Positions 10,142-30,659 of a stretch of 64,000 nucleotides of DNA are shown piece by piece. Position 1 is the first letter of the stretch. Each line of letters starts with the position of its first letter. The stretch lies in NCBI RefSeq assembly GCF_009846865.1, contig NZ_WUWN01000003.1, positions 1-64,000 of the forward strand, in the 5' to 3' direction. The notes below the pieces were generated by a model. It worked only from the letters and a program-made list of their open reading frames with translations. It did no database searches and had not been told where the DNA came from. This stretch comes from Puerhibacterium puerhi (GTDB lineage: Bacteria; Actinomycetota; Actinomycetes; Actinomycetales; Cellulomonadaceae). The translations under genes were made by a program, and so were the position numbers.

Positions 10142-11389
10142 TCACCCCTCGGCCGGGCGGGCGCGGTGCCCGGACTCGCCGGTGCTCCACCAGCCGGCCA
10201 CCGGGACGTCGGTGAGCAGCAGCCCGCCCAGCGACCGCGCCTTGTAGCGGGCCGGGTTGTGCGAGGCCACCGTGCGCGCGTTGCGCCAGTGCCGGTCGAG
10301 CGCGAGCCCGGTGTCCGTGGCGCTCGCCCCGCCCACCTCGAACAGCTGCGTGGCGGCGTCCAGCACCGACCGCAGCACAATGAGCTGGGCGCGGGCGGTG
10401 TCGGCGTCGAGCGCCGCGACGATCCGGGCGAGCTCCTGGTCGTCGACCCCGGCGGCCGCCGCGGCGGCCGAGGCGTCGAGGGAGCGGGCGACGTGCGCGA
10501 CGGCGGCGTCGGCGGCGAAGCGCAGCGCGTCGAGCTCGCCGACCGTCTCCTGGACGATGGGGTCCTCGCGCGCGGTGGCCGCGCTGCCGTGGCTGTACGC
10601 GCGCGTGCGCGCCCGCACGAACGCCGTCGCGTCGTCGACGACGGCGCGCCCGATGCCGGCGGCGACGGCGAGCAGCACGAGCTGCACGAACGCCGAGCCG
10701 TGCGAGGGCCGCGCGGCGCGGTGCCGCTGGACGGCGTCCGGCGTGACGGCGACCCCGTCGAAGACCGTGGTGCCGCTGCCGGTGAGCCGCTGGCCGAACC
10801 CGGTCCAGTCGTCCACCCGGCGCACGCCGGGCGCGTCGGTCGGCACGAGCACGCTCACCGGCTCGCCGTCCTCGTCCTGGGCCGCGACCGAGACGACGTC
10901 GGCGAACAGCGTGCCGGTGCTGTAGTACTTCGTGCCGTCGAGCCGCAGCGCGCCGTCGGCGCCCGTCGTGAGGCGGGTGGCGTAGGACCCGACGATCGCC
11001 GCCGACCGCTCGTGCGAGGCGTTGCCGACGATCTTGCCGGCCGCCACGAGGGCCAGGTTCGCCTCCCGGCGCTCCGAGGCCGGCGCCAGGAGCGAGCGGT
11101 CGACGAAGGCGAAGTGCGACCGGAAGAGCTGCGCGAGGTTCGGGTCGCGCCGGGCCAGCTCGGCGAGCAGGTCGAACAGCTCGCTGCGGGTCGCCCCCGC
11201 GCCGCCGAGCCCGGCCGGCAGCGTGACGCGGGTGAAGCCGGCCTCCCGGAGGGCCTCCACCTCCGCGTACGGCAGGCGGCGGTCCCGCTCGCGCGCGACG
11301 GCGTCGGCGCCCACCTCGTCGAAGACCGGGGCGAAGCGGGCGACCAGGTCGCGCTGCCCGGTCGGGGCCCAGGCCGTCCCCGCCGTCAT
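10142..11389 (-). CDS. DszC/SfnB-like flavin monooxygenase of the acyl-CoA dehydrogenase fold, second copy
   Basis: A 415-residue protein of the acyl-CoA dehydrogenase superfamily, most like the FMNH2-dependent group of DszC (dibenzothiophene) and SfnB (dimethylsulfone). Visible landmarks are LPAGLGGAGATRSELF near residue 60, LDGTKYYSTGT near 150, the FGQRLTGSGTTVFDGV strand near 200 and a C-terminal LDRHWRNARTVASHNP. The last motif is characteristic of this monooxygenase branch rather than true acyl-CoA dehydrogenases. It is the last gene of the six-gene operon and overlaps its paralogue by ATGA. It would need reduced flavin, probably from the reductases at 20.5-21.6 kb. Substrate unknown. 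Confidence 0.85.
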   Translation of the reverse strand: MTAGTAWAPTGQRDLVARFAPVFDEVGADAVARERDRRLPYAEVEALREAGFTRVTLPAGLGGAGATRSELFDLLAELARRDPNLAQLFRSHFAFVDRSLLAPASERREANLALVAAGKIVGNASHERSAAIVGSYATRLTTGADGALRLDGTKYYSTGTLFADVVSVAAQDEDGEPVSVLVPTDAPGVRRVDDWTGFGQRLTGSGTTVFDGVAVTPDAVQRHRAARPSHGSAFVQLVLLAVAAGIGRAVVDDATAFVRARTRAYSHGSAATAREDPIVQETVGELDALRFAADAAVAHVARSLDASAAAAAAGVDDQELARIVAALDADTARAQLIVLRSVLDAATQLFEVGGASATDTGLALDRHWRNARTVASHNPARYKARSLGGLLLTDVPVAGWWSTGESGHRARPAEG

Positions 11390-12780
11390 CGCGGCTGCCC
11401 CGCGGCCGGTGCGGCGGGGGCGTCGGCAGGGGCGTCAGCCGGGGCGCCGCCGTCGTCGCCGGGCTGGTCGCCGGGTTGGGCGTCGGCCTGGTCCCCGGCC
11501 GCGGGCGGCGCCCCCGGCGCCCGCCACTGCGGCAGCGTGCCGTCGAGCTCGAGCTGGCCGATGGCCGCCGCGCGCTGGACCGCCGGGTTGTGCGACGCGA
11601 CGGTGCGCGCGTTGCGCCAGTGCCGGTCGAGCCCGCGCGCGGTGCTCGTCGCGCTCGCGCCGCCGACCTCGAAGAGCTCCGACGTCGCGTCGAGCACGAG
11701 CGGCAGCACGACCTGCTGCGCCCGGAACACGTCGAGCTGCACGGAGCGGGCGGCCCCCTGCGCCGCCCGGCCGTCGCGCACCGCCTCGACGAACCCGTCG
11801 AGGGCGCGCGCGTTGTGCAGCACGATCGCGCGTGCGGCGTGGGCGGCGGCGCTGAGCCGGCCGACGACCGCCTGCACCAGCGGGTCCTCCCGGGGCGCGT
11901 GCTCGCCGGCGTGGCCGAACGTCCGGCGGCGCCCGCGGGTGTACTCCACCGTGTCGTCGAGGGCGGCCTGCGCGATGCCGGCCACGGTGGCCAGCAGCAC
12001 GAGCTGGAAGACGGCGCCGAGGTAGGGCCACGTCTCGTCGTCCGGCTCGTGCCGCGTGATGTCCTCGGGGAGGACCGGCACGGCCTCGAACGTCGTCGTG
12101 CCGCTGCCGGTGAGCGGCTGCCCGAATCCGTCCCAGTCGTCGACGGAGCGGACGCCGGGCAGCGACGCGTCGAGGGTCACCCCCACCCGCTCGTCGCCGT
12201 CGAGCGCGGCGAGGTGGATCCAGTCGGCGTAGATGCTGCCGGTCGTGTAGTACTTCGTGCCGGTGACCCGCCAGCCGCCGTCCTCGCCCCGCTCGAGCCG
12301 GGTGCCGAGGTCGCCGAGCTCGCGCCGCTCCGACTGGGCGTTGCCCACGAGGTCGCCGCGGCGCAGCCGCGCCACCCAGCGCTCCTGCGACGCGTCCAGC
12401 TCCTGGCCGTCGCGCAGCCCGGTCAGCAGCAGCGTCTCGACGAACGCCACGTGCCCGCGCACCAGGTGCCCCAGGTTCGAGTCGGCCGCCGACAGGTCGA
12501 CGAGCAGCCCGAACAGCTCCTCGAGCGACACGCCGGCGCCGCCGTGCTCGCGGGGCAGGCGCAGCGCCCCGAAGCCGAGCGACTGCAGCTCGCGGACCTC
12601 GTCGAACAGCAGGCGCCGGTGGGCCTCCCGCTCGCGCGCGCCCGGGCGCAGCCGGTCCAGGAACGCGCGGAAGGCCGCGCGGTCGAACGGACCGGCGTCG
12701 GAACCGGCGTCGGGACCGGCACCGGGACCGACCTCGGCGTCGGCGTCGGCGGCGGGACGGGACTGGGTGGTGAGGCTCAC
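11386..12780 (-). CDS. DszC/SfnB-like flavin monooxygenase of the acyl-CoA dehydrogenase fold, first copy
   Basis: Paralogue of the next gene (464 residues) with the same landmarks: LPREHGGAGVSLEELF, VTGTKYYTTGSIY, GFGQPLTGSGTTTF and GLDRHWRNARTVASHNP. Both ends carry extra low-complexity sequence: an Asp/Gly/Ala-rich N-terminus (PGAGPDAGSDAG) and a C-terminal tail of Gln/Asp/Pro/Ala repeats that neither enzyme core needs. Proteins of this class oxygenate sulfur, nitrogen or activated carbon with FMNH2. The start at 12780 lies 19 bases after the ATPase stop and follows AGAGAGGGAAGCC, a usable ribosome site. Having two unequal paralogues suggests two substrates or a heteromeric enzyme. Confidence 0.85.
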   Translation of the reverse strand: MSLTTQSRPAADADAEVGPGAGPDAGSDAGPFDRAAFRAFLDRLRPGAREREAHRRLLFDEVRELQSLGFGALRLPREHGGAGVSLEELFGLLVDLSAADSNLGHLVRGHVAFVETLLLTGLRDGQELDASQERWVARLRRGDLVGNAQSERRELGDLGTRLERGEDGGWRVTGTKYYTTGSIYADWIHLAALDGDERVGVTLDASLPGVRSVDDWDGFGQPLTGSGTTTFEAVPVLPEDITRHEPDDETWPYLGAVFQLVLLATVAGIAQAALDDTVEYTRGRRRTFGHAGEHAPREDPLVQAVVGRLSAAAHAARAIVLHNARALDGFVEAVRDGRAAQGAARSVQLDVFRAQQVVLPLVLDATSELFEVGGASATSTARGLDRHWRNARTVASHNPAVQRAAAIGQLELDGTLPQWRAPGAPPAAGDQADAQPGDQPGDDGGAPADAPADAPAAPAAGQPR

Positions 12781-12798: not shown

Positions 12799-14451
12799 TC
12801 AGACCGGGACGTCCACCCGCGGCACGGCCGCGAGCAGCTCCCGGGTGTAGGCGTGCTGCGGCCGGTGGAACACCGCGTCGGCGTCCCCGGCCTCGACCGC
12901 GCGCCCGTCCTTGAGCACGAGGACGCGGTCGGCCACGTGGTGCACGACCCCGAGGTCGTGGCTGATGAAGACCGACGCGACGCCGGTCGCCTCGCGCACG
13001 TCCGCCAGCAGGTCGAGCACCTGGGCCTGGACGGAGACGTCGAGCGCGGACACCGGCTCGTCGCACACCAGGACGTCCGGCCGCGGCGCCAGCGCCCGCG
13101 CGATCGCGACCCGCTGGCGCTGCCCGCCCGACAGGCGCAGCGGGTGCCGCGCCAGGTGCTGCTCCCCCAGCCCGACCAGCTCCAGCAGCTCGACCGACCG
13201 GGCCCGCATGTCGCGGGCCGACGGCCGCTCGCCGTCGTCGGTCGCGCGCAGCGCCTCGGCGAGGATCCGCCCGACGTCGTGCCGGGGGTCGAAGGTGCCC
13301 AGGGCGTCCTGCGAGACGGCCTGGACACGCCGGCGCAGCGCCCGGCGCTCGCTCCGGCTCAGGTCGGACCACGCCCGCCCGTCGACGGCGACCCGGCCGG
13401 CGTCGGGCCGGTCGAGGCCGAGCAGGAGCCGCGCGACGGTCGACTTGCCCGAGCCGGACTCGCCGACGATGCCGAGCGTCTCGCCGCGGTGCAGCTCGAA
13501 CGACACGTCGTCCACCGCCCGGCGGACCGACCCGTCGCGGCCGGCGAAGGTGCGCACCAGGCCGCGGGCCTCGACGACGACCTCGGGCGCCCGGTCGCTG
13601 CGCCAGGCGCGGCCGATGCGGCTCGCGTACCGCGAGCGCTCGCCGCCCGCGAGCCGCCGGCCGCGCGAGGCGCCCGACGGCACGGCGGCCAGCAGCGCGC
13701 GGGTGTACGGGTGCTGGGGGTCGGTGAGCACCTGGCGGGCGGGCCCCTGCTCGACGATCGCGCCGTCCTTCATCACGAGGATCCGGTCGGCGACCCCGGC
13801 CACGGCGGCCAGGTCGTGGCTGATCAGCAGCAGCGAGCGGCCGTCGTCCACGAGCCGGCGCAGCAGGGCGAGCACCTGCGCCTGGACGGTGACGTCCAGC
13901 GCGGTGGTCGGCTCGTCCGCGACGATCAGGTCCGGGTCGCCCGCCAGCGCGCTCGCGATGAGCGCCCGCTGGCGCAGGCCGCCGGACAGCTCGTGCGGCA
14001 GCTGGTCGAGCCGGGCCTCCGGGTCCGGGATACCCGCCTCGCGCAGCAGCGCGGCGGCGCGCTCCCGGCGCCGGGCCCGCGGCGCCGGCGCGTGCCGCAC
14101 CAGGACGTCGTCGAGCTCGGCGCCGACGGTGCGGACCGGGTCGAAGGACACCAGGGCGTCCTGCAGCACGAGCCCCACGCGCCGGCCCCGCACGGTGCGC
14201 CACCGGCCCTCGCGGTAGGCGAGCAGGTCGTCCCCGTCGAGCTCGAGGCGCCGAGCGTGCACGTGCGCCCCGGCCCCCGCCAGCCCCACCAGCGACCGGG
14301 CGGTGACGGACTTGCCCGACCCCGACTCCCCGACGATCGCCACGGCCTCGCCGCGGTCGACGGTGAAGGAGATGCCGTGCACCACGCGGTCGTCGGCGGC
14401 GTCGCTGCCGAAGCCGACCTCCAGCCCCTCGACGGTGAGCAGGCGGCTCAT
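12799..14451 (-). CDS. fused dipeptide-type ABC transporter ATPase (DppD-DppF fusion)
   Basis: Cytosolic energy-coupling subunit of the importer encoded by this operon. Two complete nucleotide-binding domains lie in one 550-residue chain: the first with Walker A GESGSGKS near residue 41 and signature LSGGLRQRA near 155, the second with Walker A GESGSGKST near 327 and signature LSGGQRQRVAIARAL near 430. The oligopeptide/nickel-type C-terminal extension HPYTRALLAAVP occurs after the first domain and HAYTRELLAAVP after the second. The ATG at 14451 overlaps the permease stop by ATGA. Confidence 0.93.
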   Translation of the reverse strand: MSRLLTVEGLEVGFGSDAADDRVVHGISFTVDRGEAVAIVGESGSGKSVTARSLVGLAGAGAHVHARRLELDGDDLLAYREGRWRTVRGRRVGLVLQDALVSFDPVRTVGAELDDVLVRHAPAPRARRRERAAALLREAGIPDPEARLDQLPHELSGGLRQRALIASALAGDPDLIVADEPTTALDVTVQAQVLALLRRLVDDGRSLLLISHDLAAVAGVADRILVMKDGAIVEQGPARQVLTDPQHPYTRALLAAVPSGASRGRRLAGGERSRYASRIGRAWRSDRAPEVVVEARGLVRTFAGRDGSVRRAVDDVSFELHRGETLGIVGESGSGKSTVARLLLGLDRPDAGRVAVDGRAWSDLSRSERRALRRRVQAVSQDALGTFDPRHDVGRILAEALRATDDGERPSARDMRARSVELLELVGLGEQHLARHPLRLSGGQRQRVAIARALAPRPDVLVCDEPVSALDVSVQAQVLDLLADVREATGVASVFISHDLGVVHHVADRVLVLKDGRAVEAGDADAVFHRPQHAYTRELLAAVPRVDVPV

Positions 14452-15344
14452 CGGGCCGCCCCCGTCCCGCGCTGCAGCCGGCGCCCGACCACCGTGACGC
14501 TCACGACGAGCAGCGTGATCGCCAGGCCCGGGAAGAGCGCGCCCCACAGGGAGTTGGCCAGGAAGTTGCGGGCGGTCGAGAGCATGACGCCCCACGAGGG
14601 AGCGGGCGGCGCCTCCCCCAGGCCGATGAAGCTGAGCCCGGCGCCGGCGACGCTGGCCGTCCCGACGCCGATGGTCGCGAGCACGAGGACCGGGCGCACG
14701 GCGTTGGGCAGCACGTGCCGCAGCACCACCGCCCGCTCGGTGAGCCCGAGCCCCCGGGCCGACTCGACGTAGGACGACCGCCGGATCGTGAGCGTCTGCG
14801 CGCGCACCAGCCGGGCGAACGTGGGGATGCCGGCGATGCCGATAGCGATGAGCGCGTTGCGCGCCCCGCGCCCGGAGACGGCGATGACGACGAGCGCCAG
14901 CAGCATCTCGGGGAAGGCGAGGCCGATGTCGACGAACCGCATGACGACGGTCTCGACGAGCCGGTTGCCGAGCCCCGCGAGGACGCCGAGGAGCGAGCCG
15001 CCGACGAGCGAGAGCGTGACCGCGCCGAAGCCGAGCAGCACCGCCTCGCGGGCGCCGCCGACGATCCGGCTGTAGGTGTCACGGCCGTTCTCGTCGGTGC
15101 CGAGCCAGTGCTCGGCGCTCGGCGGGGCCAGCAGGTCCGGGGTGATCTCGAGCGGGTCGTGGGTCTGCAGCAGCGACGGCCACGCCGCGGCGACGCCGAG
15201 GAACACGAGGAACGCCAGGGCGAGGACCACGCCGACGCCCGGTCCGCGGCGACGGCCGCCGCGGGCGCGGCGCGGGTTGGCCGCCGAGGCGCGCCGGGCG
15301 AGGGGCTCCGGCGCCGTGGGGGGACGGTGCAGCACGGTGGTCAT
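14448..15344 (-). CDS. DppC-type ABC transporter permease
   Basis: Second membrane subunit (298 residues, about six helices). It has the DppC N-terminal pattern with one helix followed by HWLGTDENGRDTYSRIVGGAR, and the cytoplasmic coupling loop ESARGLGLTERAVVLRHVLPNA near residue 192. The start ATG at 15344 overlaps the previous stop by four bases. The family imports peptides, nickel, or small sulfur compounds such as glutathione; the operon favours an organosulfur compound. Confidence 0.92.
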   Translation of the reverse strand: MTTVLHRPPTAPEPLARRASAANPRRARGGRRRGPGVGVVLALAFLVFLGVAAAWPSLLQTHDPLEITPDLLAPPSAEHWLGTDENGRDTYSRIVGGAREAVLLGFGAVTLSLVGGSLLGVLAGLGNRLVETVVMRFVDIGLAFPEMLLALVVIAVSGRGARNALIAIGIAGIPTFARLVRAQTLTIRRSSYVESARGLGLTERAVVLRHVLPNAVRPVLVLATIGVGTASVAGAGLSFIGLGEAPPAPSWGVMLSTARNFLANSLWGALFPGLAITLLVVSVTVVGRRLQRGTGAAR

Positions 15345-16339
15345 GCCTGCCTCCCGAGGCGAGGGTCGATGAGGGGGTAGAGCAGGTCGACGACGAGGTT
15401 GACGAGCACGTAGACGGCGGCGGACAGCACCACGAGGCCCACGACGAGCGGCATGTCCTTCGTCGAGACGGCCGACAGGAGGGTCCGCCCGAGCCCTTGG
15501 CGGGAGTAGAGCGTCTCGGTGATCACGGCGCCGCCGAGCAGGCCGGCGACGAGGTAGCCGGCCATCGTGGTCAGCGAGATCAGCGAGTGCCGCAGCACGT
15601 GCACCAGGCGCACCGCCGTGTCCGACAGCCCGCGGGCCCGGGCACTGATCACGAACGGCTGCTCGAACGTCTCCTCGGCCACGTTCCGCACGACCTGCGC
15701 CAGCACCGCGGCCAGCGGCAGCGCGAGCGTCAGGGTGGGCAGCACCAGGGAGGCCAGGCCCTCGTTGCCGATCGCGGGCAACCAGCCGAGCCGGTAGGAG
15801 AACACCGACAGCAGCAGGATCCCGAGCCAGAACCCGGGCAGCGACGCGAGCGTGAGGTCCACGACCGAGGCGGTGCCGCGCACCGCCCGGCGACGGTTCG
15901 CCGTGAGCAGCGCCCAGACGACGGCGAGGACGACGGCGAGCGCGCCCGCCGCGACGGCGAGCTGGACGGTGGCGCCCGCCTGCTCGGCGATGACCGTCGT
16001 GACCGGCAGCCGCCGCTGGTAGGACTCGCCGAAGTCGCCCGTCACGGCCCCGCCGAGGAACGCCAGGTACTGCACCCACCAGGGGCGGTCGAGGCCGTAC
16101 TGCTCGCGCACGGCCGCGAGCGCCTCCGGCGTCGGGTTCGCGTCGGGGCCGCCGAGGACGGCGTAGGCCGGGTCGCCGGGCGTGAGGTAGACGGCGGCGT
16201 AGGTGATGGTCGCGGCGCCCCACAGCACGCCGACGGCGCCGAGGACGCGCGCGGCGGTGCGGCCCAGGGGCCGGGCGGCCGACGACCGCGCGGTGGTGAG
16301 GGCCGAGCGCGCCCGCCGCCCCGCGGCGAGCTCACTCAC
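15341..16339 (-). CDS. DppB-type ABC transporter permease
   Basis: First membrane subunit (332 residues). It shows the DppB hallmarks TPGDPAYAVLGG and YGLDRPWWVQYLAFLGGAVTGDFGESY after helix 1, and the coupling loop SARARGLSDTAVRLVHVLRHS near residue 230. The N-terminus is unusually Arg/Ala-rich before helix 1. The ATG overlaps the 3' end of the binding-protein gene by eight bases, so translation is probably coupled. Confidence 0.92.
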   Translation of the reverse strand: MSELAAGRRARSALTTARSSAARPLGRTAARVLGAVGVLWGAATITYAAVYLTPGDPAYAVLGGPDANPTPEALAAVREQYGLDRPWWVQYLAFLGGAVTGDFGESYQRRLPVTTVIAEQAGATVQLAVAAGALAVVLAVVWALLTANRRRAVRGTASVVDLTLASLPGFWLGILLLSVFSYRLGWLPAIGNEGLASLVLPTLTLALPLAAVLAQVVRNVAEETFEQPFVISARARGLSDTAVRLVHVLRHSLISLTTMAGYLVAGLLGGAVITETLYSRQGLGRTLLSAVSTKDMPLVVGLVVLSAAVYVLVNLVVDLLYPLIDPRLGRQA

Positions 16340-17978
16340 CGCCCACCGTCCAGATGTCGTGCGGCAGCACCGCGGGGTAGGCCACGTCGAGCCGCAGCCC
16401 GTGCACCGTCTGCTTGTCGTAGGCGACGACGCGCTGGTCGTCGAAGAGCGGCACGGCGGGCGCGAGCTCGACCAGCCGCTGCTGCGCCTGGGCGTAGAGG
16501 TCGGCCTGCTCGGCGGTGTCGGTGGTCTCCCGGGCCCGCTGCACCAGGTCGTCGAACGTCGCGTCGCTGAGGTAGGAGGTGTTCAGGCCGATCCGCTCCG
16601 GCGTCGTGATGCCGTCGGTCGAGTACTTCAGGTAGAGGATGTCCGGGGTGTTGGTGCCCCAGATGCCGTTGGAGATGTCGTAGTCGCCGTTGCGGCTGCG
16701 GTCGGACAGCTCCTGCGCCGCGGGGTACTCGATGGTGATCTCGAGGCCCAGGTCCCGCTTGGCGGCGGCCTGCACCTGCTCGGCGATCTGCACGCGGTAG
16801 GCGATGGTGTTGGACATCGGGAAGACCGCCGTGAGGCGCTCGCCGTCCTTGGTGCGGTACCCGTCGCCGTCGCGGCCGGTCCAGCCGGCCTCGTCGAGCA
16901 GCCGGTTCGCCTCGTCGACGTCGTAGTCGACCGGGTTCTCGGAGTACTGGTACGTCGAGGACGTCAGGAAGCCCTTCGATGCCTCGTACTGCCCGAACAG
17001 GACGCTGTCGACGATGCCCTGGCGGTCGATGCCGTGCAGCAGCGCCTGGCGCACCCGCACGTCGTCGAACGGCGCCCGGCTCGCGTTGAGGTACCAGGCG
17101 AAGGGGTGCCCGGGGGTGGTGACCTGCAGGACGTCGAGCCGCGGGTCGCTCTTGGCGGTCTCGAGGTTCTGCGCGGGCACCCAGTCGATGGCGTCGACCT
17201 GGCCGGACTGCAGGGCGCTGAACCGGGTGGCGTCCTCGGCGATGAACAGGACCGTGTAGTCCTTGAGGTACGCCGGGCCCTGGTGGCTGCCGGGCGGGCC
17301 CCAGTCGTAGTCGTCGTTGCGGGTGTAGGTGACGGACTGGCCCTTGGTCCACTCGACGATGGAGAACGGGCCGGTGCCGATCGGGTCGGTGCACACCGAG
17401 CCCGGGTCCTCGGCGAGCTGCTTCGGGGAGATCACCCCGAAGAAGCCCTGCGCCAGCACGCGCAGGAACGCCGAGTAGGGCGTCGACAGGTGCACCTCGA
17501 GCGTGCGGTCGTCGACCACCGTCGAGCCCTCGTACGGGGCGATGTACGAGGCGGCCATCGGCGACTTCGTCTCGGGCTGCACGATCCAGTCGAGGTTCGC
17601 CTTGAACGCCGCGGCGTCCCAGGCGCTGCCGTCGGTGAACGTCACGCCGTCCCGGAGGGTGAACGTGTAGGTCTTGCCGTCCGGCGAGATCTCCCAGTCC
17701 TCGACGAGCCACGGCTCGATCTCGCCGGACTCCGGGTCCTGCCACACGGGCGAGTCGGTGAAGGCCCGGGCGGCGAGCGCCCCGTTGAGGCTGGAGTTGA
17801 GCGCCGGGGCGATGCAGTCGAACTCCTGGCCGTTCGTGGCGATGGTGAACGACCCGTCGCGGACCGGCTCGCCGCTCGCGGCGGCCGCGCCGCCGCCGCC
17901 CGACGACGGCGCGCACGCGGCGAGCGCCAGCATGGCCGCGGCGGACACGGCGAGGGCGGTGCGTGGCGTGTGCTTCAC
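16332..17978 (-). CDS. ABC transporter substrate-binding lipoprotein, SBP family 5
   Basis: First gene of the importer/monooxygenase operon: a 548-residue extracytoplasmic binding protein of the peptide/nickel/glutathione family. The signal sequence ends in the lipobox LALAAC with the lipidated Cys at 22, followed by a Ser/Gly linker. The family 5 core is clear (WLVEDWEISPDGKTYTFTLRDGVTFTDGS, and later DDVRVRQALLHGIDRQGIV). Translation starts at GTG with GGGAGA upstream. A sigma-70-type promoter with an upstream box shared by the other sulfur genes lies about 80 bases before it. The ligand is not known; context suggests an organosulfur compound or S-containing peptide. Confidence 0.92.
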   Translation of the reverse strand: MKHTPRTALAVSAAAMLALAACAPSSGGGGAAAASGEPVRDGSFTIATNGQEFDCIAPALNSSLNGALAARAFTDSPVWQDPESGEIEPWLVEDWEISPDGKTYTFTLRDGVTFTDGSAWDAAAFKANLDWIVQPETKSPMAASYIAPYEGSTVVDDRTLEVHLSTPYSAFLRVLAQGFFGVISPKQLAEDPGSVCTDPIGTGPFSIVEWTKGQSVTYTRNDDYDWGPPGSHQGPAYLKDYTVLFIAEDATRFSALQSGQVDAIDWVPAQNLETAKSDPRLDVLQVTTPGHPFAWYLNASRAPFDDVRVRQALLHGIDRQGIVDSVLFGQYEASKGFLTSSTYQYSENPVDYDVDEANRLLDEAGWTGRDGDGYRTKDGERLTAVFPMSNTIAYRVQIAEQVQAAAKRDLGLEITIEYPAAQELSDRSRNGDYDISNGIWGTNTPDILYLKYSTDGITTPERIGLNTSYLSDATFDDLVQRARETTDTAEQADLYAQAQQRLVELAPAVPLFDDQRVVAYDKQTVHGLRLDVAYPAVLPHDIWTVGGE

Positions 17979-18058: not shown

Positions 18059-18111
18059 AAAGTAGGCACGGCCGTCGCGGGCGTCAACGCCTTCGTGTGA
18101 CGTCTCACATG
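18059..18111 (-). promoter_or_regulatory. promoter of the importer/monooxygenase operon with CATGTGAGA box
   Basis: On the minus strand: box CATGTGAGA (18111-18103), 15 bases, -35 TTGACG (18087-18082), 17 bases, -10 TACTTT (18064-18059). The same box, spacing and TACNTT -10 recur at two other promoters in this locus. The remainder of 17979-18294 shows no gene; the leader from the predicted start to the GTG has no ATG and no evident riboswitch. Confidence 0.75.
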
Positions 18112-18294
18112 GCGGACGGCGGCGGCCCCCCGCGGGCCCGCGCCACCGGCGCCCGGGCGCCCGTGGCGAGCGGGCCGACGCGAGGAGCGGCACATCGCTG
18201 CAGGTCAGGGCGCCGAGATGGGCAGCGGCAACCGCGCGGTCAGACCCACGGTCGACCACATCGCGAGACGGTGACGTCGCCGCGGAGCGGGTGG

Positions 18295-18669
18295 TCAGCG
18301 CGGCGGCGCGCGGAAGTAGTCGGCGGCGAGCTGGCCCAGCACACCCAGCACGAGCAGGCCCACGGCGGGCCACAGCGCCAGCGGACCGAGGCCCGCGCGC
18401 ACGTCCCACCCCACCGCAGGCCCGAACATCGCGACCATCAGCCAGGCCGCTCCCGCTAGCACGCCGGCGTAGAGGACGGGCCCGGCCTTGCGCGCCTTGC
18501 GCGGCCCGGGCACCAGGGCGTCGGCGTACTCCTCGGGGCGGCCGAGCTCCTGCCGGAGCTCGGCGTCGTCCAGGCCGCGCCCGGCGGTCGTGCGCAGGAC
18601 GTCGGCGATCATCTCCTCGCTGGCGCCGCGCGCCCGCAGCGCCATGGTGAGCCTGCGCGCGTAGGACAC
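18295..18669 (-). CDS. HAAS-domain small membrane protein
   Basis: A 124-residue protein whose first 60 residues have the HAAS pattern (YARRLTMALRARGASEEMIADVL, then EELGRPEEYADAL-like ending) followed by two membrane helices (about 68-90 and 97-115). HAAS proteins usually sit beside a PadR regulator and are thought to transmit a signal across the membrane; no PadR gene is visible here. The start is GTG at 18669 with AAGGAGG eight bases upstream. It diverges from the LLM operon, whose operator palindrome lies between them. Confidence 0.75.
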   Translation of the reverse strand: MSYARRLTMALRARGASEEMIADVLRTTAGRGLDDAELRQELGRPEEYADALVPGPRKARKAGPVLYAGVLAGAAWLMVAMFGPAVGWDVRAGLGPLALWPAVGLLVLGVLGQLAADYFRAPPR

Positions 18670-18822
18670 GTCAGCCTCCTTCGCCCGTCGTGCCGCGATC
18701 CTCCAGCGTCCCCGCCAGGCCGCTCGGACGCCACCCCCTGAGGCCGCGGGCAGGCGCGGGCAGCCGCGGGCCGGCGCGGGGCGGAGCGGGGCGGAGCCGG
18801 ACAGAGCGGGTGAAACGGTGCG

Positions 18823-18850
18823 TCTCACATGATGGTCCCACCATGTGAGA
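18823..18850. promoter_or_regulatory. 28-bp palindromic operator of the LLM monooxygenase operon
   Basis: Arms TCTCACATG and CATGTGAGA, with an inner TGG/CCA pair, form a 28-base dyad broken at one base pair and at the two centre bases. Its right arm is the box that precedes the promoter of the rightward operon, and the left arm faces the HAAS gene. A dimeric regulator is the simplest reading. Confidence 0.75.
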
Positions 18851-18894
18851 ACTCCGGCCGGCCTGTTGCCCCGCCGCCGGAGGGCACCTACCTT
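18842..18894 (+). promoter_or_regulatory. promoter of the LLM/flavin reductase operon
   Basis: Box CATGTGAGA (18842-18850), 15 bases, -35 TTGCCC (18866-18871), 17 bases, -10 TACCTT (18889-18894). The weak -35 fits activator dependence. The leader contains a perfect 9-bp hairpin, GGCCGCGCC with loop CGC and GGCGCGGCC, around 18911-18931. Confidence 0.7.
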
Positions 18895-18982
18895 CCGGGC
18901 ACCGATCGCCGGCCGCGCCCGCGGCGCGGCCGACCGACCACGCCGAGCGGGACGAGCTCCCGTGCCCGACCGGAGGCCTCCG

Positions 18983-20395
18983 ATGACGAACGAGCCCAAG
19001 CAGCTGATCCTCAACCTGTTCGAGATGGCCTGCGTCAGCCACATCACCCACGGCCTCTGGCGCCTGGACGGCAACAACCGCCACCGGTTCGCCGACCTCG
19101 ACTACTGGACCGAGCTGGCGCAGATCCTCGAGGACGGCGGCTTCGACGCGGTGTTCCTGGCCGACGTGATCGGCACGTACGACGTGTTCCGCGACGGGCC
19201 GGAGACGGCGCTGCGCGAGGGCGTCCAGAGCCCGGACCTCGACCCGCTGCTGCTGGTGCCCGCGATGGCTGCCGTGACCGAGCGCCTCGGCTTCGGCGTG
19301 ACGTTCTCGACCACGTACGAGCCACCGTTCGCGTTCGCCCGCCGCATCTCCACGCTCGACCACCTCACCCGCGGGCGGATCGGCTGGAACATCGTCACCT
19401 CCTACCTGCCCAACGCGGCCCGCAACTTCGGCCTCGACGACCAGATCCCGCACGACCGGCGCTACGAGCTCGCCGACGAGTACCTGCACGTGCTCTACAA
19501 GCTGTGGGAGGGCTCGTGGGACGACGGCGCCCTGGTCCACGACCGCGAGCGCGGCGTCGTGACCGACCCCGCCAAGGTGCGCTACATCGACCACGTCGGC
19601 GAGACGCACCGCGTGGCCGGGCCGCACCTGGTGCACCCGTCGCCGCAGCGCACCCCCGTGCTGTTCCAGGCGACCGGCTCCCCGGCGGGCTCGGCGTTCG
19701 CCGGGCGGCACGCCGAGGTGCTGTTCACCGGCGGGCGCACCACCGAGCAGTTCCAGGCCGTCAAGCGCTCGGTCCAGGACGCCGCCGTGGCGCAGGGGCG
19801 CACGGAGGGCTCGGTGCGGTTCATCGTCCAGGCCGGCGTCATCGTCGGGCGCACCCAGGAGGAGGCCGAGGACAAGTGGCGCCTGTACCAGGCGTACACC
19901 AGCCTCGACGGCATCCTGGCCCACCAGGGGCTGCCGGTGGACCTCACCGCCGCGCCGCGCGACATCACCGTGGCCGAGGCGATCGCCCGCAGCGGCAAGG
20001 ACCTGGGCCGGGCGCCCCAGCTGCCGCTCGACAGGACCGTCGGCGAGGTGCTCGACCAGGTCCGCGTCGGGCGCGCCGAGCGCTTCTTCGTCGTCGGCAC
20101 GCCCGACGTCGTCGCCGACGAGATCGAGCGCTGGCTCGACGTGGACGGCATCGACGGCATCAACCTGCGCCAGTACCACTCGTTCGGCACCGCGCAGGAC
20201 TTCGCCGAGCTGGTGGTGCCGGAGCTGCGGCGCCGCGGGCGCCTGCCCGAGGCCGGCGAGCACGCGGGCGCCACCCTGCGCGAGCGCATCTTCGGCCACC
20301 CGCGGCTGCCGTCGGAGCACGTCGGCACGCGGTACCGGGGCGGGGCCCACCTCGGCGCCGGAGCCCTGCCCGCGCCCGAGCCGACCGCCGTCTGA
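18983..20395 (+). CDS. NtaA/SnaA/DszA family FMN-dependent monooxygenase (LLM class)
   Basis: Two-component luciferase-like monooxygenase (470 residues) that would use FMNH2 from a partner reductase to cleave C-S or C-N bonds in compounds such as sulfones, sulfonates or nitrilotriacetate. Family landmarks are WTELAQILEDGGFDAVFLAD, TFSTTYEPPFAFARRISTLDHLTRGRIGWNIVTS and HPSPQRTPVLFQATGSPAG. GGAGG ends six bases before the ATG at 18983; a GTG 21 bases earlier is in frame but less likely. Two flavin reductase genes follow in the same operon, matching the ntaA/ntaB and dszA/dszD logic. Substrate unknown. Confidence 0.92.
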   Translation: MTNEPKQLILNLFEMACVSHITHGLWRLDGNNRHRFADLDYWTELAQILEDGGFDAVFLADVIGTYDVFRDGPETALREGVQSPDLDPLLLVPAMAAVTERLGFGVTFSTTYEPPFAFARRISTLDHLTRGRIGWNIVTSYLPNAARNFGLDDQIPHDRRYELADEYLHVLYKLWEGSWDDGALVHDRERGVVTDPAKVRYIDHVGETHRVAGPHLVHPSPQRTPVLFQATGSPAGSAFAGRHAEVLFTGGRTTEQFQAVKRSVQDAAVAQGRTEGSVRFIVQAGVIVGRTQEEAEDKWRLYQAYTSLDGILAHQGLPVDLTAAPRDITVAEAIARSGKDLGRAPQLPLDRTVGEVLDQVRVGRAERFFVVGTPDVVADEIERWLDVDGIDGINLRQYHSFGTAQDFAELVVPELRRRGRLPEAGEHAGATLRERIFGHPRLPSEHVGTRYRGGAHLGAGALPAPEPTAV

Positions 20396-20450
20396 CACCG
20401 TCCGACGCCGTCCGGCGCCCACCGACCTCCGAGCAGCTCCTGGAGCACCC

Positions 20451-21005
20451 ATGACCTCCCCCCACTCCCCCGCCGGCCCCGTCGTCGTGCTGTCCGGCAA
20501 CCCCCGCCCGGGGTCGCGGACCCTCGGCGTCGCCGAGGCCGTCGGCGGGCGCGTCGCCGACCTGCTGGGCGCCCCCGACGTCGTCACGGTCGACCTGGCC
20601 GGCCTGGCCGGCGAGCTCTTCGCCGCCGACCGTCCAGCGGTCGAGCGGGCGCGCGAGCAGGTCGCCGCCGCAGCCGTCGTGGTCGTCGCGACGCCCGTCT
20701 ACAAGGCCGCCTACACGGGCCTGCTCAAGTCGTTCCTCGACCTGTACGGCCCGGACGGCCTGGCCGGCGTCGTCGCCGTGCCGCTGGTGGTCTCCGGCAA
20801 CCCGGCCCACGCGCTCGCGGGCGAGGTGCACCTGCGCCCGGTGCTCGTCGACCTCGGCGCGGTGGTGCCCACGCGGTCGTTCACGGTGACCGAGGCGCAG
20901 CTGGCGGACCTCCCGCCGGTGCTGGACGCCTGGCTGGACCGGTGGGCCGACGCGCTCGCCCGCGCCGTCGGGGTGCCCGCCGTCGCGACGGGGGGCGCCC
21001 GATGA
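20451..21005 (+). CDS. NAD(P)H-dependent FMN reductase (SsuE/MsuE-like)
   Basis: Flavodoxin-fold reductase (184 residues) that supplies FMNH2 to two-component monooxygenases. The phosphate-binding loop SGNPRPGSRT lies near residue 15 and the family motif ATPVYKAAYTGLLKSFLDLYG near 80-100, as in SsuE and MsuE of sulfonate assimilation. It is the second gene of the operon and overlaps the next gene by ATGA. Confidence 0.92.
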   Translation: MTSPHSPAGPVVVLSGNPRPGSRTLGVAEAVGGRVADLLGAPDVVTVDLAGLAGELFAADRPAVERAREQVAAAAVVVVATPVYKAAYTGLLKSFLDLYGPDGLAGVVAVPLVVSGNPAHALAGEVHLRPVLVDLGAVVPTRSFTVTEAQLADLPPVLDAWLDRWADALARAVGVPAVATGGAR

Positions 21006-21565
21006 CCGCCGAGCGCACCAGCCTGGCCGCCCTCGAGCTGCTGCTGTCCGAGGACGACGAGCCGCACCTGACGCCCGAGGCGTTCAAGGCCGTGTTCCGC
21101 CGGCACCCGGCGGGCGTGGCGGTCGTCGCGCTGCTCGACGACGAGGGTCCGGTCGGCTTCACTGCCACGTCGGTCATCTCGGTGTCGGCAGCGCCGCCGC
21201 TGCTGGCCTTCTCGGTCGCCTCGACGTCGTCGTCGTGGCCCGCGCTCGCGCGCGCCCGCACCCTCGCCGTCAACTTCCTCGCCGACGACCAGGACGACGT
21301 CTCCGCCCGCTTCGCGACGCACGGCATCGACCGCTTCGCCGCCGGCGGCTGGACCGCGCTCCCCACCGGCGAGCCGGTCATCGACGGTGCCGTGTCCTGG
21401 GTGCGGGCCCGCGTCGTGCAGCGCACGCCCGTGGGCGACAGCTACCTGGTGTCGCTGCGCGCGCTGGAGTCGGGGACCGCCGCGCCCGAGGCGGGCGGCG
21501 CGGCGTCCCCCCTCGTCTACCTCGACCGCACCTATCACCGGCTGGGCGACGACACCGCGATCTGA
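21002..21565 (+). CDS. flavin reductase family protein (HpaC/DIM6-like split barrel)
   Basis: FMN-binding split-barrel reductase of 187 residues, a second possible supplier of reduced flavin. Typical stretches are FRRHPAGVAVVALLDDEGPVGFTATSV, SVSAAPPLLAFSVA and ARTLAVNFLADDQ. Having two unrelated reductases in one operon is unusual and may serve the several monooxygenases of the locus separately. The last 31 bases overlap the convergent LLM gene. Confidence 0.9.
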   Translation: MTAERTSLAALELLLSEDDEPHLTPEAFKAVFRRHPAGVAVVALLDDEGPVGFTATSVISVSAAPPLLAFSVASTSSSWPALARARTLAVNFLADDQDDVSARFATHGIDRFAAGGWTALPTGEPVIDGAVSWVRARVVQRTPVGDSYLVSLRALESGTAAPEAGGAASPLVYLDRTYHRLGDDTAI

Positions 21566-22863
21566 CCGGCCGCCTCGGGCCGCCGCCGCGCCGTGCCGCG
21601 CGGTGCGCGGCCCGCGACGCCCGTCGGGGTGTCCGTGACCCGGGAGCCCGTCGCGCGGACGCCCGACGCGCCGCCGACGGCGGGCAGGCCGAGGGCCGCG
21701 CGCAGCGTGGTCGCCGCGACGGGCGCGACCTCCCGGCGCAGGCCCGCGACCTCCAGCGCGGGCAGGGCGTGGTCGACGACGGCGTCGAGGTCCGCCCCCA
21801 GGGAGGACGGGCGCAGGACGAAGCCGTCGGCGGCGCCCGAGTCGCGCCAGGCGCCGGCCAGGTCCGCCAGCCCTCCCGCGGTGCCCGCGAAGACCAGCGC
21901 CCCGTGCGCCACCTCCGGCCCCTCGAGCGACTCCACGAGCTCGAGCCGCGCCTGGGCGCTCTCCCGGTCCGTCGACAGCACCACGTACGCGTCGACGAGG
22001 ACGCGCGGCGCCGCGAGGCGGCCCGCGGCGAGGGCGGCCTCCCGCAGCCGCTCGCGCAGCTCCGCCGCCCGCCCGCGGTAGGCCACCGCCACGCGCACGA
22101 CGTCGGCCACACGCGCCGCGAGCGGCAGGTCCGCCTCGGTGCGCACCCGCACGACGACGGGCGGGCGGCCCTGCGGCGAGGCGGCGACCTCGTCCGCCTC
22201 GCGGCGCACCGCGAACCGCACCCCGTCGCGCTCGACGGCGTGGCGACCCTCGCCGTCGAGCCGGACGGCACCGTCCCGCTCGCCGGTCCCCCAGTGGCGC
22301 ACGACGGCGTCGGCGTCCGCGGCGGCGCGGTGCGCCCAGGCGTCGTCGCTGGTGACGAGCGTGGGCGGCAGGCCCACCTGCCAGCCGGCGCGCCCGGCGC
22401 TCTCCCGGTCCACGCTCGTGATGGCGCCGGCCACGTGCGCGGCCTCGACGTGCACCGTCTCGACGGCGGCCACGAGGCCGACCCGCGTGGTGAGCGGGGC
22501 GACGCGGGCCGCGGCGACGGCGGCGTCGAGCCGCCCGGTGAGCCGGCTGCGGCCGGGGTGCAGCAGGAAGCTCTCGTCGAGGGTCACCAGGTCGACGCCG
22601 CCGGCGTCGGCGCGACGGACGAGGTCGACGAAGCGCCGGCCGTCGAACGACCGCGGCGACTGCAGGCCCCGGGCGCGGTGGGAGCCCGGGCGGGCGCCGG
22701 CCGCGCTGAGATCGACGCCGACGACGAGGTGGCGGTCGGTCTGGTCGGCGTGCCGGCGGTGGTGCAGCTGGTCCGGGTGGTCCAGGTGCGGCTGGTGCGA
22801 CTGGTTCAGGTGCGGGTGGCTCAGGTGCGGGTGGCTCAGGTGCGGCTCGTTCAGGTGCGACAT
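21535..22863 (-). CDS. LLM class flavin-dependent oxidoreductase with His-rich N-terminus
   Basis: A 442-residue luciferase-like protein, diverged from the NtaA/DszA family member at 18983. Recognisable parts are FVDLVRRADAGGVDLVTLDE, VAPLTTRVGLVAAVETVHVEAAHVAGAITSVDRESAGRAGW and the later PPVVVRVRTEADL strand. Before the fold, residues 1-43 are a repetitive His/Pro/Leu segment (HLSHP, HLNEP units, about 14 His), which could bind metal or simply reflect DNA repeat expansion. The C-terminal 60 residues are low complexity. Its promoter belongs to the shared organosulfur set and its leader contains a Cys-rich mini-ORF. Substrate unknown. Confidence 0.82.
   Translation of the reverse strand: MSHLNEPHLSHPHLSHPHLNQSHQPHLDHPDQLHHRRHADQTDRHLVVGVDLSAAGARPGSHRARGLQSPRSFDGRRFVDLVRRADAGGVDLVTLDESFLLHPGRSRLTGRLDAAVAAARVAPLTTRVGLVAAVETVHVEAAHVAGAITSVDRESAGRAGWQVGLPPTLVTSDDAWAHRAAADADAVVRHWGTGERDGAVRLDGEGRHAVERDGVRFAVRREADEVAASPQGRPPVVVRVRTEADLPLAARVADVVRVAVAYRGRAAELRERLREAALAAGRLAAPRVLVDAYVVLSTDRESAQARLELVESLEGPEVAHGALVFAGTAGGLADLAGAWRDSGAADGFVLRPSSLGADLDAVVDHALPALEVAGLRREVAPVAATTLRAALGLPAVGGASGVRATGSRVTDTPTGVAGRAPRGTARRRPEAAGQIAVSSPSR
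22803..22862 (-). repeat. four tandem 15-bp repeats encoding HLSHP-type units
   Basis: Four 15-base units related to GGCTCAGGTGCGGGT lie immediately after the LLM start codon and encode the His-rich N-terminus. The two central units differ only at their last bases, indicating slippage expansion. Confidence 0.8.
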
Positions 22864-22963
22864 GGAGGGCTCCGGCTCGGCACGCGCCCGGGCACGCGCG
22901 CCGCCGGGCCCGGTACGGGCTCGGCGCGCGGCGGTCCGGCGCTGCGGGAAGGTGGGGGCGGCT

Positions 22964-22981
22964 CGGCGCTCGCGAGCGCCG
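22964..22981. promoter_or_regulatory. 18-bp perfect palindrome in the LLM leader
   Basis: CGGCGCTCGCGAGCGCCG is self-complementary over 18 bases and lies between the Cys-rich mini-ORF stop (23025) and the LLM start (22863). With GC-rich complementary segments nearer the LLM ribosome site it could form part of an attenuator; this is inferred. Confidence 0.4.
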
Positions 22982-23024
22982 GGGGCGCGGACGTCGGCGC
23001 GTCCGGCGCTGGACGGTCAGGTCG

Positions 23025-23141
23025 TCAGCAGGGACGACAGCACATTCGCCGCCGGGGCAGGGTGTCGCCGCCCTGCTCGGCGGTGCAGCGGGACCGCAGG
23101 ACCTGCGCGACCGCTGTGCGGCGCGTCGTGCTCCTGGCCAT
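23025..23141 (-). CDS. putative Cys-rich leader peptide upstream of the LLM gene
   Basis: A 38-residue reading frame, MARSTTRRTAVAQ at the start and RRRMCCRPC at the end, with four Cys of which three lie in the last five residues. A strong AGGAGGAG lies eight bases before the ATG. It sits in the long leader of the LLM gene, 161 bases before its start and about 190 bases after the predicted transcription start. Cys-rich leader peptides upstream of sulfur-assimilation genes are known in actinobacteria, where ribosome stalling at Cys codons signals cysteine shortage. The good ribosome site and placement support it; no homologue was recognised. Confidence 0.5.
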   Translation of the reverse strand: MARSTTRRTAVAQVLRSRCTAEQGGDTLPRRRMCCRPC

Positions 23142-23339
23142 CGTGGGCTCCTCCTGGCGCCCGCCCGGGGGCGGGCTCGCGTGTTGCCCCACCGCCGGGC
23201 GGCGGTGGGCCTGGTCCTCACCCGGGGCACCCGCCCGCGCGGGGGGTTGCCGTCCGACCAGCCGGGGCTTCGCGTCGGAGCTCATGACCTGTCGCGCCCG
23301 ACGACGCCATCGACGGCGTCACCTGGTGCGACGCGCGGA

Positions 23340-23393
23340 AAAGTACGGAGGGGCGGCGGCGGTGTCAACGGCTGCCCGGGGAGTTCTCAGATG
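23340..23393 (-). promoter_or_regulatory. promoter of the leader peptide/LLM gene with CATCTGAGA box
   Basis: On the minus strand: box CATCTGAGA (23393-23385), 16 bases, -35 TTGACA (23368-23363), 17 bases, -10 TACTTT (23345-23340). The box is followed by ACTCC, as at the promoter at 18842. The rest of 22864-23498 beyond the leader peptide shows no other gene. Confidence 0.75.
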
Positions 23394-23504
23394 TCGGGAC
23401 CTGCGGCCACGTCCCGCCCGGCCCGGCGGTCTCGTCGGCGACCGTGTGCGGCCTCGAGGGCGTCCGGGTAGCGTCGGGCCGACCCCGTCCCGGAGGAGAT
23501 GACG

Positions 23505-23651: not shown

Positions 23652-23683
23652 CGCCCGGGTTCGACGAGGCGGCGGCCGGCGAC

Positions 23684-23737
23684 GTCACACAGGGGCGCCG
23701 CGTCACGCAGGGGCGCCGCGTCACGCAGGGGCGCCGA
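23684..23737. repeat. three tandem 18-bp repeats
   Basis: Three copies of an 18-base unit, GTCACGCAGGGGCGCCGC with one or two changes, lie at the 3' end of the leftward DHFR-family gene; the stop codon falls inside the third copy. A single related GTCACGCAGGGGC occurs near 28775. Too few and lacking spacers for a CRISPR array. Confidence 0.8.
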
Positions 23738-29729: not shown

Positions 29730-30659
29730 ATGACGGTCGGAACGGACGATCGGGAGCAGGCCGGGCCGGACCTCGACCTGCGACTGATCCGCTACTTCGT
29801 CGCGGTCGCCGAGCACGGCAACTTCGGCCGGGCGGCCGACGCGCTGCTGATCGCGCAGCCTTCGCTCAGCCGGCAGATCCGCCGGCTGGAGGCCCAGGTC
29901 GGGGCGCGCCTGCTCGACCGCACGCCGCGCGGCAGCCGGCTCACCGCCGCCGGCACCGCCTTCCTGCCGCAGGCCCGCGCGCTGCTGCGCCAGGCGCGGA
30001 GCGCCACCGACGCCGCGCGCGCGGCGGCTGGCGTCCGGACGTTCACGATCGGGTACACGGGCGGGATCGTCGTCTCGCCGATCTCCCGCCATCTCTCCGA
30101 GCGCTTCCCCGGCGTCGCGATCGCGACCCGCCGGCTGCCCGAGGAGAAGCCCGCCGACGCCCTGCGGGAGGGCCTCGTCGACGGCCTCGTCGCTCGGCTG
30201 CCACTGGAGACCGACGGCCTTCAGGTGACCATGATCGGCGCCGACCCGCGCGCCCTGGTCGTCTCGGTCGACCACCCCCTCGCGGCCCGCGCGTCGGTGG
30301 CGCCCGAGGACTTCGAGGGGGACCCGCGCGTGTCCTGCGCCTCGGCCGACGCCGACTGGACGTCGTTCTGGAGGCTCGAGGACGACTCCCCCGTGCCGCT
30401 CTCCCGCCTCTCGGCCGACAGCTTCGACGACAAGCTCGAGCTCGTCGCCACCCGCCAGGCCGTCGCCGTGCTTCCCGAGCACGATCCGCGGCTCGCGATC
30501 CGGCCCGACATCGTGGCGATCCCGATCGACGGTGCCCCACCGGCGCTGGTGGCCGCGGCGACGCGCGACGACGACGAGATCGCACGCGAGTTCCACGCGG
30601 CCGCGCAGACCTACCGGTGGACGCCCGCGGGCGCCGCCGCGGCGTTGCCGCGCGGCTAG
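29730..30659 (+). CDS. LysR family transcriptional regulator
   Basis: A 309-residue LTTR with the winged helix at residues about 16-75 (LIRYFVAVAEHGNFGRAADALLIAQPSLSRQIRRLEAQVGARLLDRT) and a periplasmic-binding-like effector domain from about 100. It is transcribed away from the SDR gene across a 167-base spacer, the usual layout for an LTTR and its target. A near-palindrome CGGATGCATGTCCG in that spacer could be its site, though it lacks a clear T-N11-A frame. Confidence 0.93.
   Translation: MTVGTDDREQAGPDLDLRLIRYFVAVAEHGNFGRAADALLIAQPSLSRQIRRLEAQVGARLLDRTPRGSRLTAAGTAFLPQARALLRQARSATDAARAAAGVRTFTIGYTGGIVVSPISRHLSERFPGVAIATRRLPEEKPADALREGLVDGLVARLPLETDGLQVTMIGADPRALVVSVDHPLAARASVAPEDFEGDPRVSCASADADWTSFWRLEDDSPVPLSRLSADSFDDKLELVATRQAVAVLPEHDPRLAIRPDIVAIPIDGAPPALVAAATRDDDEIAREFHAAAQTYRWTPAGAAAALPRG

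Follow-up and report, generated by a model that had tools for sequence, protein, structure and literature searches.

NdgR of Streptomyces coelicolor, a member of the IclR family, controls cys, met and branched-chain amino acid genes (PMC4340878). Its sites, mapped by chromatin immunoprecipitation sequencing (ChIP-seq) on cys, met, ilv and leu genes, are of the GTCCA-N5-YGGAC type, and ndgR and leuC are arranged divergently (PMC4340878). For the NdgR/LtbR group of Actinobacteria, the motif KTYCRSMWYSYGRRM was derived in a comparison of IclR-family regulators (PMC8222616). At the RNA level, leader open reading frames (ORFs) with cysteine codons, but without clear terminators, precede actinobacterial cys operons (PMC1262725). 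Here we analyse three promoters of predicted organosulfur operons of Puerhibacterium puerhi. They lie in positions 1 to 64,000 of contig NZ_WUWN01000003.1 (assembly GCF_009846865.1), and this stretch of 64,000 nucleotides is called the window below. All three are preceded by a 15-bp candidate operator. An earlier note on the sequence had not recognised the motif; it fits the published NdgR/LtbR consensus with 0, 1 and 2 mismatches at the three promoters. As the motif matches the site of a known regulator type, these promoters would be a new target set of that type rather than a new system.

The boxes described in the earlier note, CATSTGAGA at 18103-18111 (minus strand), 18842-18850 (plus) and 23385-23393 (minus), are all present, and their near-identical geometry holds. 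They are followed after 15, 15 and 16 bp by the -35 elements TTGACG (18087-18082), TTGCCC (18866-18871) and TTGACA (23368-23363), and after a further spacer of 17 bp in all three cases by the -10 elements TACTTT, TACCTT and TACTTT. Directly after two of the boxes stands ACTCC. The -35 elements had been called weak, which is true of TTGCCC only, TTGACG and TTGACA being close to consensus. The sharing of this code by three organosulfur promoters is real and non-random, judging by genome-wide counts and by the motif found in other genera (see below). The whole 3.9-Mb genome has six copies of CATSTGAGA, of which four lie in the present locus. The other two, on contigs C1 and C7, lack TTG-N17-TACNTT. 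A motif search, proposed in the same note, was run on 149 genomes (this one and 148 others), and the composite pattern of box, -35 and -10 matched only these three promoters. A looser composite pattern matched four promoters in the same genome, adding one on contig C11 to the three, as well as a single promoter in the sister species; its reversed version, used as a control, had no matches. The copy on contig C7 is also kept in the sister species. In both genomes (L002, G000:C7; L192, G001:C167), CATCTGAGACGGTGACCG stands between the gene of a BASS-type transporter and a divergent gene resembling amidotransferases, and the -35/-10 geometry is lacking. A match on contig C70, just upstream of a LepA-like gene, is probably due to chance.

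The 9-mer itself is not the functional unit. It forms the right portion of an imperfect palindrome of 15 bp (18117-18103, 18836-18850, 23399-23385) which begins 6 bp further upstream and whose left half had been missed. The full sites follow the pattern [GT][CT][CT]CR-N5-YGAGA; GTCCGCCATGTGAGA from the window may be compared with the S. coelicolor ChIP-seq site GTCCGCCATGCGGAC (PMC4340878). With its centre 23-24 bp in front of the -35 element, the operator would fall at about -58 relative to the predicted start, judging by the promoter spacing. One of the boxes is indeed half of a 28-bp dyad, TCTCACATG-N10-CATGTGAGA at 18823-18850. The dyad is composed of two abutting candidate operators, 18823-18837 and 18836-18850; no -35 element was found at the proper distance from the former.

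The sister species contains two such sites. Beside a conserved small gene (85% identical), it has TCTCACATCCTGGTCCCACTATGTGAGA followed by 15 bp, TTGCCG, 17 bp and TACCTT. There the dyad is conserved throughout, also at its centre, although the downstream genes differ: the promoter fronts a solute-binding protein operon that is only 35% identical. At the second site, on contig C13 of that species, the box is followed after 15 bp by TTGACA and then by an unrelated reading frame truncated by the contig edge. A dyad TCTCACATG-N11-CATGTGAGA was observed upstream of a nirB-like gene in another genome (L198, G028:C1:935952-935980). It has the same 9-bp arms, a different spacer and a composite-matrix score of only 13.4, and may reflect the same regulator or a coincidence. 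A dyad-like match in genome G403 looks like a hairpin and was rejected.

The third promoter is followed by a SAM-IV (S-adenosylmethionine, SAM) riboswitch and a cysteine-rich upstream ORF, both missed by the earlier note. The riboswitch is frequent in relatives, being found in 46 of 59 genomes. Regions of 140 bp upstream of 49 SAM-IV aptamers, none of them from the genus of P. puerhi, were subjected to unbiased expectation-maximisation. The resulting motif, gcCCac.AtGtGAGACgccc.gccc.cccgtTga, has a log-likelihood of 342, compared to 111-129 in six dinucleotide shuffles, and is the same box as that of the window at the same distance to the -35 element. With the weight matrix from those genera, the three window promoters rank 1-3 in the 64 kb (31.0, 27.7 and 24.6), whereas the next independent site in the window scores 10.9 and the reversed control does not exceed 11.1. 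The matrix also retrieves three SAM-IV promoters on contig C11 (26.9, 25.3 and 23.4) and both sites of the sister species (27.7 and 24.4). An operator within one mismatch of KTYCRSMWYSYGRRM is present in 30 of the 49 leader regions, as against about two in shuffles and about one in random flanks. These operators most often stand 15 or 16 bp from TTGAC. The exact 9-mer has almost no match in relatives outside the genus; the box is variable, YGAGA being paired with either GTCC or TCTC. Close matches CCATGTGAGAC and CCAGGTGAGAC (L249 in G008 and L250 in G005) occur on the downstream side of TTGAC, with 34 bp left to the SAM-IV aptamer; this would be a repressor-like position, in contrast to the other sites.

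The locus has no candidate regulator gene next to it, as had been stated before, and the best candidate is encoded on another contig, C6. The pattern TCTCR-N5-YGAGA was found upstream of leuC in all 30 genomes considered, including that of P. puerhi, and in the examined cases it has leuC on one side and a divergent reading frame on the other. In P. puerhi this frame (contig C6, L285) encodes a 239-aa IclR protein (IclR_C 4.7e-25, HTH_IclR 3e-11), and the intergenic operator (G000:C6) is GTCTCAGCACCTGAGAC. Judging by the synteny with leuC and by the operator, this protein is the probable NdgR orthologue. Two other regulator types, LysR and CRP/GlxR, were rejected. LysR-type regulators recognise T-N11-A, which the operator symmetry does not give, and the boxes have no link with the LysR gene at 29730-30659. 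The half-sites are oriented the wrong way for the CRP/GlxR motif. By inspection, the TGAAtnnAAt inverted repeat of SsuR/CysR is absent from all three boxes (PMC2580772), in agreement with the earlier assessment. Literature searches for the motif string itself yielded no relevant paper. The regulon pattern contained YCYR in place of YYCR and so misses TCTCR sites; the resulting regulon list is incomplete.

It is probable that the NdgR/LtbR orthologue of this genome binds the operators and activates three transcripts, one of which is gated in addition by the SAM-IV riboswitch and the cysteine leader. NdgR from contig C6 would bind the 15-bp operator, some 58 bp ahead of the predicted start. It would activate transcript 1, encoding an ATP-binding cassette (ABC) importer and two SfnB/DszC-like flavin enzymes; transcript 2, encoding an NtaA/DmoA-like luciferase-like monooxygenase (LLM) and two flavin reductases; and transcript 3, encoding the second LLM. 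On the latter, SAM-IV and the cysteine-rich leader ORF would act as two further sensors downstream, so that full expression would need both low SAM and low charged tRNA-Cys. Of the common activator postulated earlier, the shared regulatory site at an activator-like position stands; activation itself, as opposed to repression, we infer, and likewise binding by NdgR, the sulfur signal and attenuation at the upstream ORF. The fixed upstream position of the operator, overlapping neither -35 nor -10, argues for activation. The predicted operator targets are amino acid or sulfur genes: the first LLM gene scores above the family cut-off, and there are SAM-IV leaders and, on contig C11, a class-V aminotransferase and an LLM gene. 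However, several observations weigh against this reading. S. coelicolor NdgR acts as both activator and repressor (PMC4340878). The operators of the dyad have their centres 13 bp apart, while tandem IclR sites are usually spaced by 18-22 bp. The sulfur sites are asymmetric, pairing GTCCR or TCCCR with YGAGA, whereas the ndgR-leuC operators are symmetric. A matrix built from the ndgR-leuC operators alone ranks 18836 first (14.3) but gives 11.8 to 23399, level with matches in coding sequences, and 18117 is not among the matches listed. Finally, at LLM loci of relatives outside the genus the composite site of the window type had two matches versus four in the reversed control (1.33 Mb); thus the recruitment of organosulfur operons looks lineage-specific.

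The asymmetry of the sulfur sites, together with the matrix singling out only 18836, makes it possible that another IclR-family paralogue, and not the leuC-linked NdgR, took over the motif as a dedicated sulfur activator, the more so as many IclR regulators share GTNCG-N5-6-CGNAC-like motifs (PMC8222616). However, the published NdgR/LtbR consensus covers both operator subtypes, and the GTCC-type sites of NdgR on cys and met genes in the S. coelicolor ChIP-seq data imply that one protein can serve both, so a paralogue seems unlikely. NdgR could also be a repressor or a tuner of the basal level, with the sulfur response coming from the riboswitch and the cysteine leader, both of which lie downstream of one promoter. 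In S. coelicolor, cysM appears to be a repressed target of NdgR (PMC4340878), and LtbR of Corynebacterium glutamicum is described as a repressor in a title cited in PMC8222616. But no riboswitch was found at the other two promoters of the window, and in many promoters the operator centre is fixed upstream of -35 without overlap with -35 or -10, which makes repression or tuning quite improbable. The fixed spacing to -35 would also suit an intrinsic promoter element or UP-like sequence with no dedicated protein; we give this very little credence, as the box is palindromic, rare (six copies of the 9-mer) and matches a ChIP-validated regulator motif. A chance resemblance of the three upstream regions could be suspected from the shortness of the 9-mer alone, but it is contradicted by the genome-wide and cross-genus counts and can practically be dismissed.

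The features discussed, with the genes of the three operons, are listed in Table 1. Control of the three promoters by sulfur, as proposed in the earlier note, is likely in view of the SfnB/DszC-like and NtaA/DmoA-like genes and the SAM-IV riboswitch. The families suggest an organosulfur substrate, the SfnB and SsuE models being matched below their curated cut-offs.

Table 1. Operators, promoters, leader elements and genes of the three operons
Feature	Coordinates	Strand	Evidence
NdgR/LtbR-type operator GTCCGCCATGTGAGA, ABC-transporter operon	18103..18117	-	0/15 mismatches to KTYCRSMWYSYGRRM; 31.0, top score in window
NdgR/LtbR-type operator TCCCACCATGTGAGA, LLM monooxygenase operon, right half of 28-bp dyad	18836..18850	+	1/15 mismatches; score 24.6
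Second, divergent operator GACCATCATGTGAGA, left half of 28-bp dyad	18823..18837	-	2/15 mismatches; box score 20.4
NdgR/LtbR-type operator TCCCGACATCTGAGA, SAM-IV/LLM3 operon	23385..23399	-	2/15 mismatches; score 27.7
Promoter TTGACG-N17-TACTTT, solute-binding protein/permease/ATPase/SfnB-like operon	18059..18087	-	Sequence, composite and looser pattern
Promoter TTGCCC-N17-TACCTT, LLM operon	18866..18894	+	Sequence, composite pattern; also in sister-species locus L155
Promoter TTGACA-N17-TACTTT, SAM-IV/LLM3 operon	23340..23368	-	Sequence, composite pattern
SAM-IV riboswitch (RF00634), leader of third operon	23176..23289	-	Rfam covariance model 76.6 bits, gathering score 38
Candidate Cys-rich leader ORF MARSTTRRTAVAQVLRSRCTAEQGGDTLPRRRMCCRPC, 38 aa, AGGAGGA upstream	23025..23141	-	Sequence
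LLM1, NtaA/DmoA-family FMN-dependent monooxygenase	18983..20395	+	TIGR03860 460.7 bits (cut-off 279.7); Bac_luciferase 2e-47
SsuE-like NADPH-dependent FMN reductase	20451..21005	+	FMN_red 6.9e-25; TIGR03567 1.2e-27, below cut-off
Flavin reductase	20984..21565	+	Flavin_Reduct 1.8e-32
LLM3, NtaA/DmoA-like monooxygenase homologue	21535..22863	-	TIGR03860 3.6e-26, below curated cut-off
Extracellular solute-binding protein family 5	16332..17978	-	SBP_bac_5 2.1e-90
ABC permeases and double ATPase, Dpp/Opp type	12799..16339	-	Profile matches (first permease, ATPase); second permease by homology
Two SfnB/DszC-like acyl-CoA-dehydrogenase-fold oxidoreductases	10142..12780	-	TIGR04022 280.9 and 265.7 bits, below cut-off 430.9; Acyl-CoA_dh_2

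The candidate leader ORF of the third operon has 38 codons, ends with MCCRPC and is preceded by the Shine-Dalgarno-like AGGAGGA. It has no NCBIfam match, and no intrinsic terminator was found in 22500-23500. Short ORFs ending with CCR-type cysteine clusters follow SAM-IV aptamers in several genera (ECCR, SCCR, RCCCR, MCCCRH; L207, L242, L243, L244, L249). The same order of elements is seen at the promoter on contig C11 retrieved by the looser pattern: box, promoter, SAM-IV, short ORF ending with ECCR, LLM gene. In total, the genome has six SAM-IV riboswitches (in the window and on contigs C11, C40 and C56). Three of them lie within 10 kb on C11, together with transporter, class-V aminotransferase and LLM genes, and the leader on C40 has a box-like palindrome TCTCAGTAAGTGAGA and a weak -35. 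A SAM-I riboswitch (RF00162) lies upstream of an SfnB-like/LLM locus on contig C5 (L151:10644-10738) and in the sister species (L154:5694-5785); the cross-genus matrix found no strong NdgR-type site at L151. The reading frame of LLM3 starts with 15- and 24-bp tandem repeats (22756-22859) encoding a His/Pro-rich N terminus; because of this repeat its true start is uncertain and may be further downstream. An 18-bp unit CGTCACGCAGGGGCGCCG is present in three copies with 97% matches at 23683-23736.

A wider claim, which we make only tentatively and hold to be somewhat less than likely, is that sulfur scavenging throughout this actinobacterial order has NdgR as its master activator. The promoter geometry would be one and the same at genes under SAM-IV control and, in part of the lineages, at organosulfur operons, with a three-input gate (NdgR, SAM, Cys-tRNA). 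If true, such a gate would tie leucine and thiol status to organosulfur use. The third leader of the window combines three predicted elements in one stack: protein operator, SAM riboswitch and cysteine-rich upstream ORF. The arrangement of operator and SAM-IV, which recurs in many genera, offers a ready marker for finding sulfur regulons of high-GC actinobacteria bioinformatically. The order-wide pairing of NdgR-type operators with SAM-IV appears to be undescribed in the literature searched.

The closest described system, NdgR of S. coelicolor (PMC4340878), likewise has a 15-bp imperfect palindrome, divergent ndgR and leuC with an operator between them, and sulfur genes among its targets. However, its half-sites are mainly GTCCA/YGGAC, whereas here one half is YGAGA, and its 34-gene regulon consists of cys, met and branched-chain amino acid genes, not of ABC-LLM-SfnB organosulfur operons or SAM-IV leaders (PMC4340878). 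The published function of the NdgR/LtbR group is amino acid biosynthesis, and the distance of 15-16 bp to TTGAC at SAM-IV leaders is not mentioned in the available part of that study (PMC8222616). CysR and SsuR of Corynebacterium glutamicum (ROK family; PMC2580772) also control the utilisation of sulfonate and sulfate, there as activators, but their motif TGAAtnnAAt is different. Compared to a SAM-IV riboswitch (RF00634) alone, the operator here precedes the aptamer and the cysteine-rich ORF comes after it. As in the polycysteine attenuators ahead of mycobacterial cys genes (PMC1262725; Canestrari 2020, as cited in PMC13236596), cysteine codons stand near the stop codon of the candidate ORF before a sulfur gene, and no classical terminator is seen. 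Unlike the mycobacterial ORFs, the candidate found here has a Shine-Dalgarno-like sequence and is predicted to sit behind a SAM-IV aptamer.

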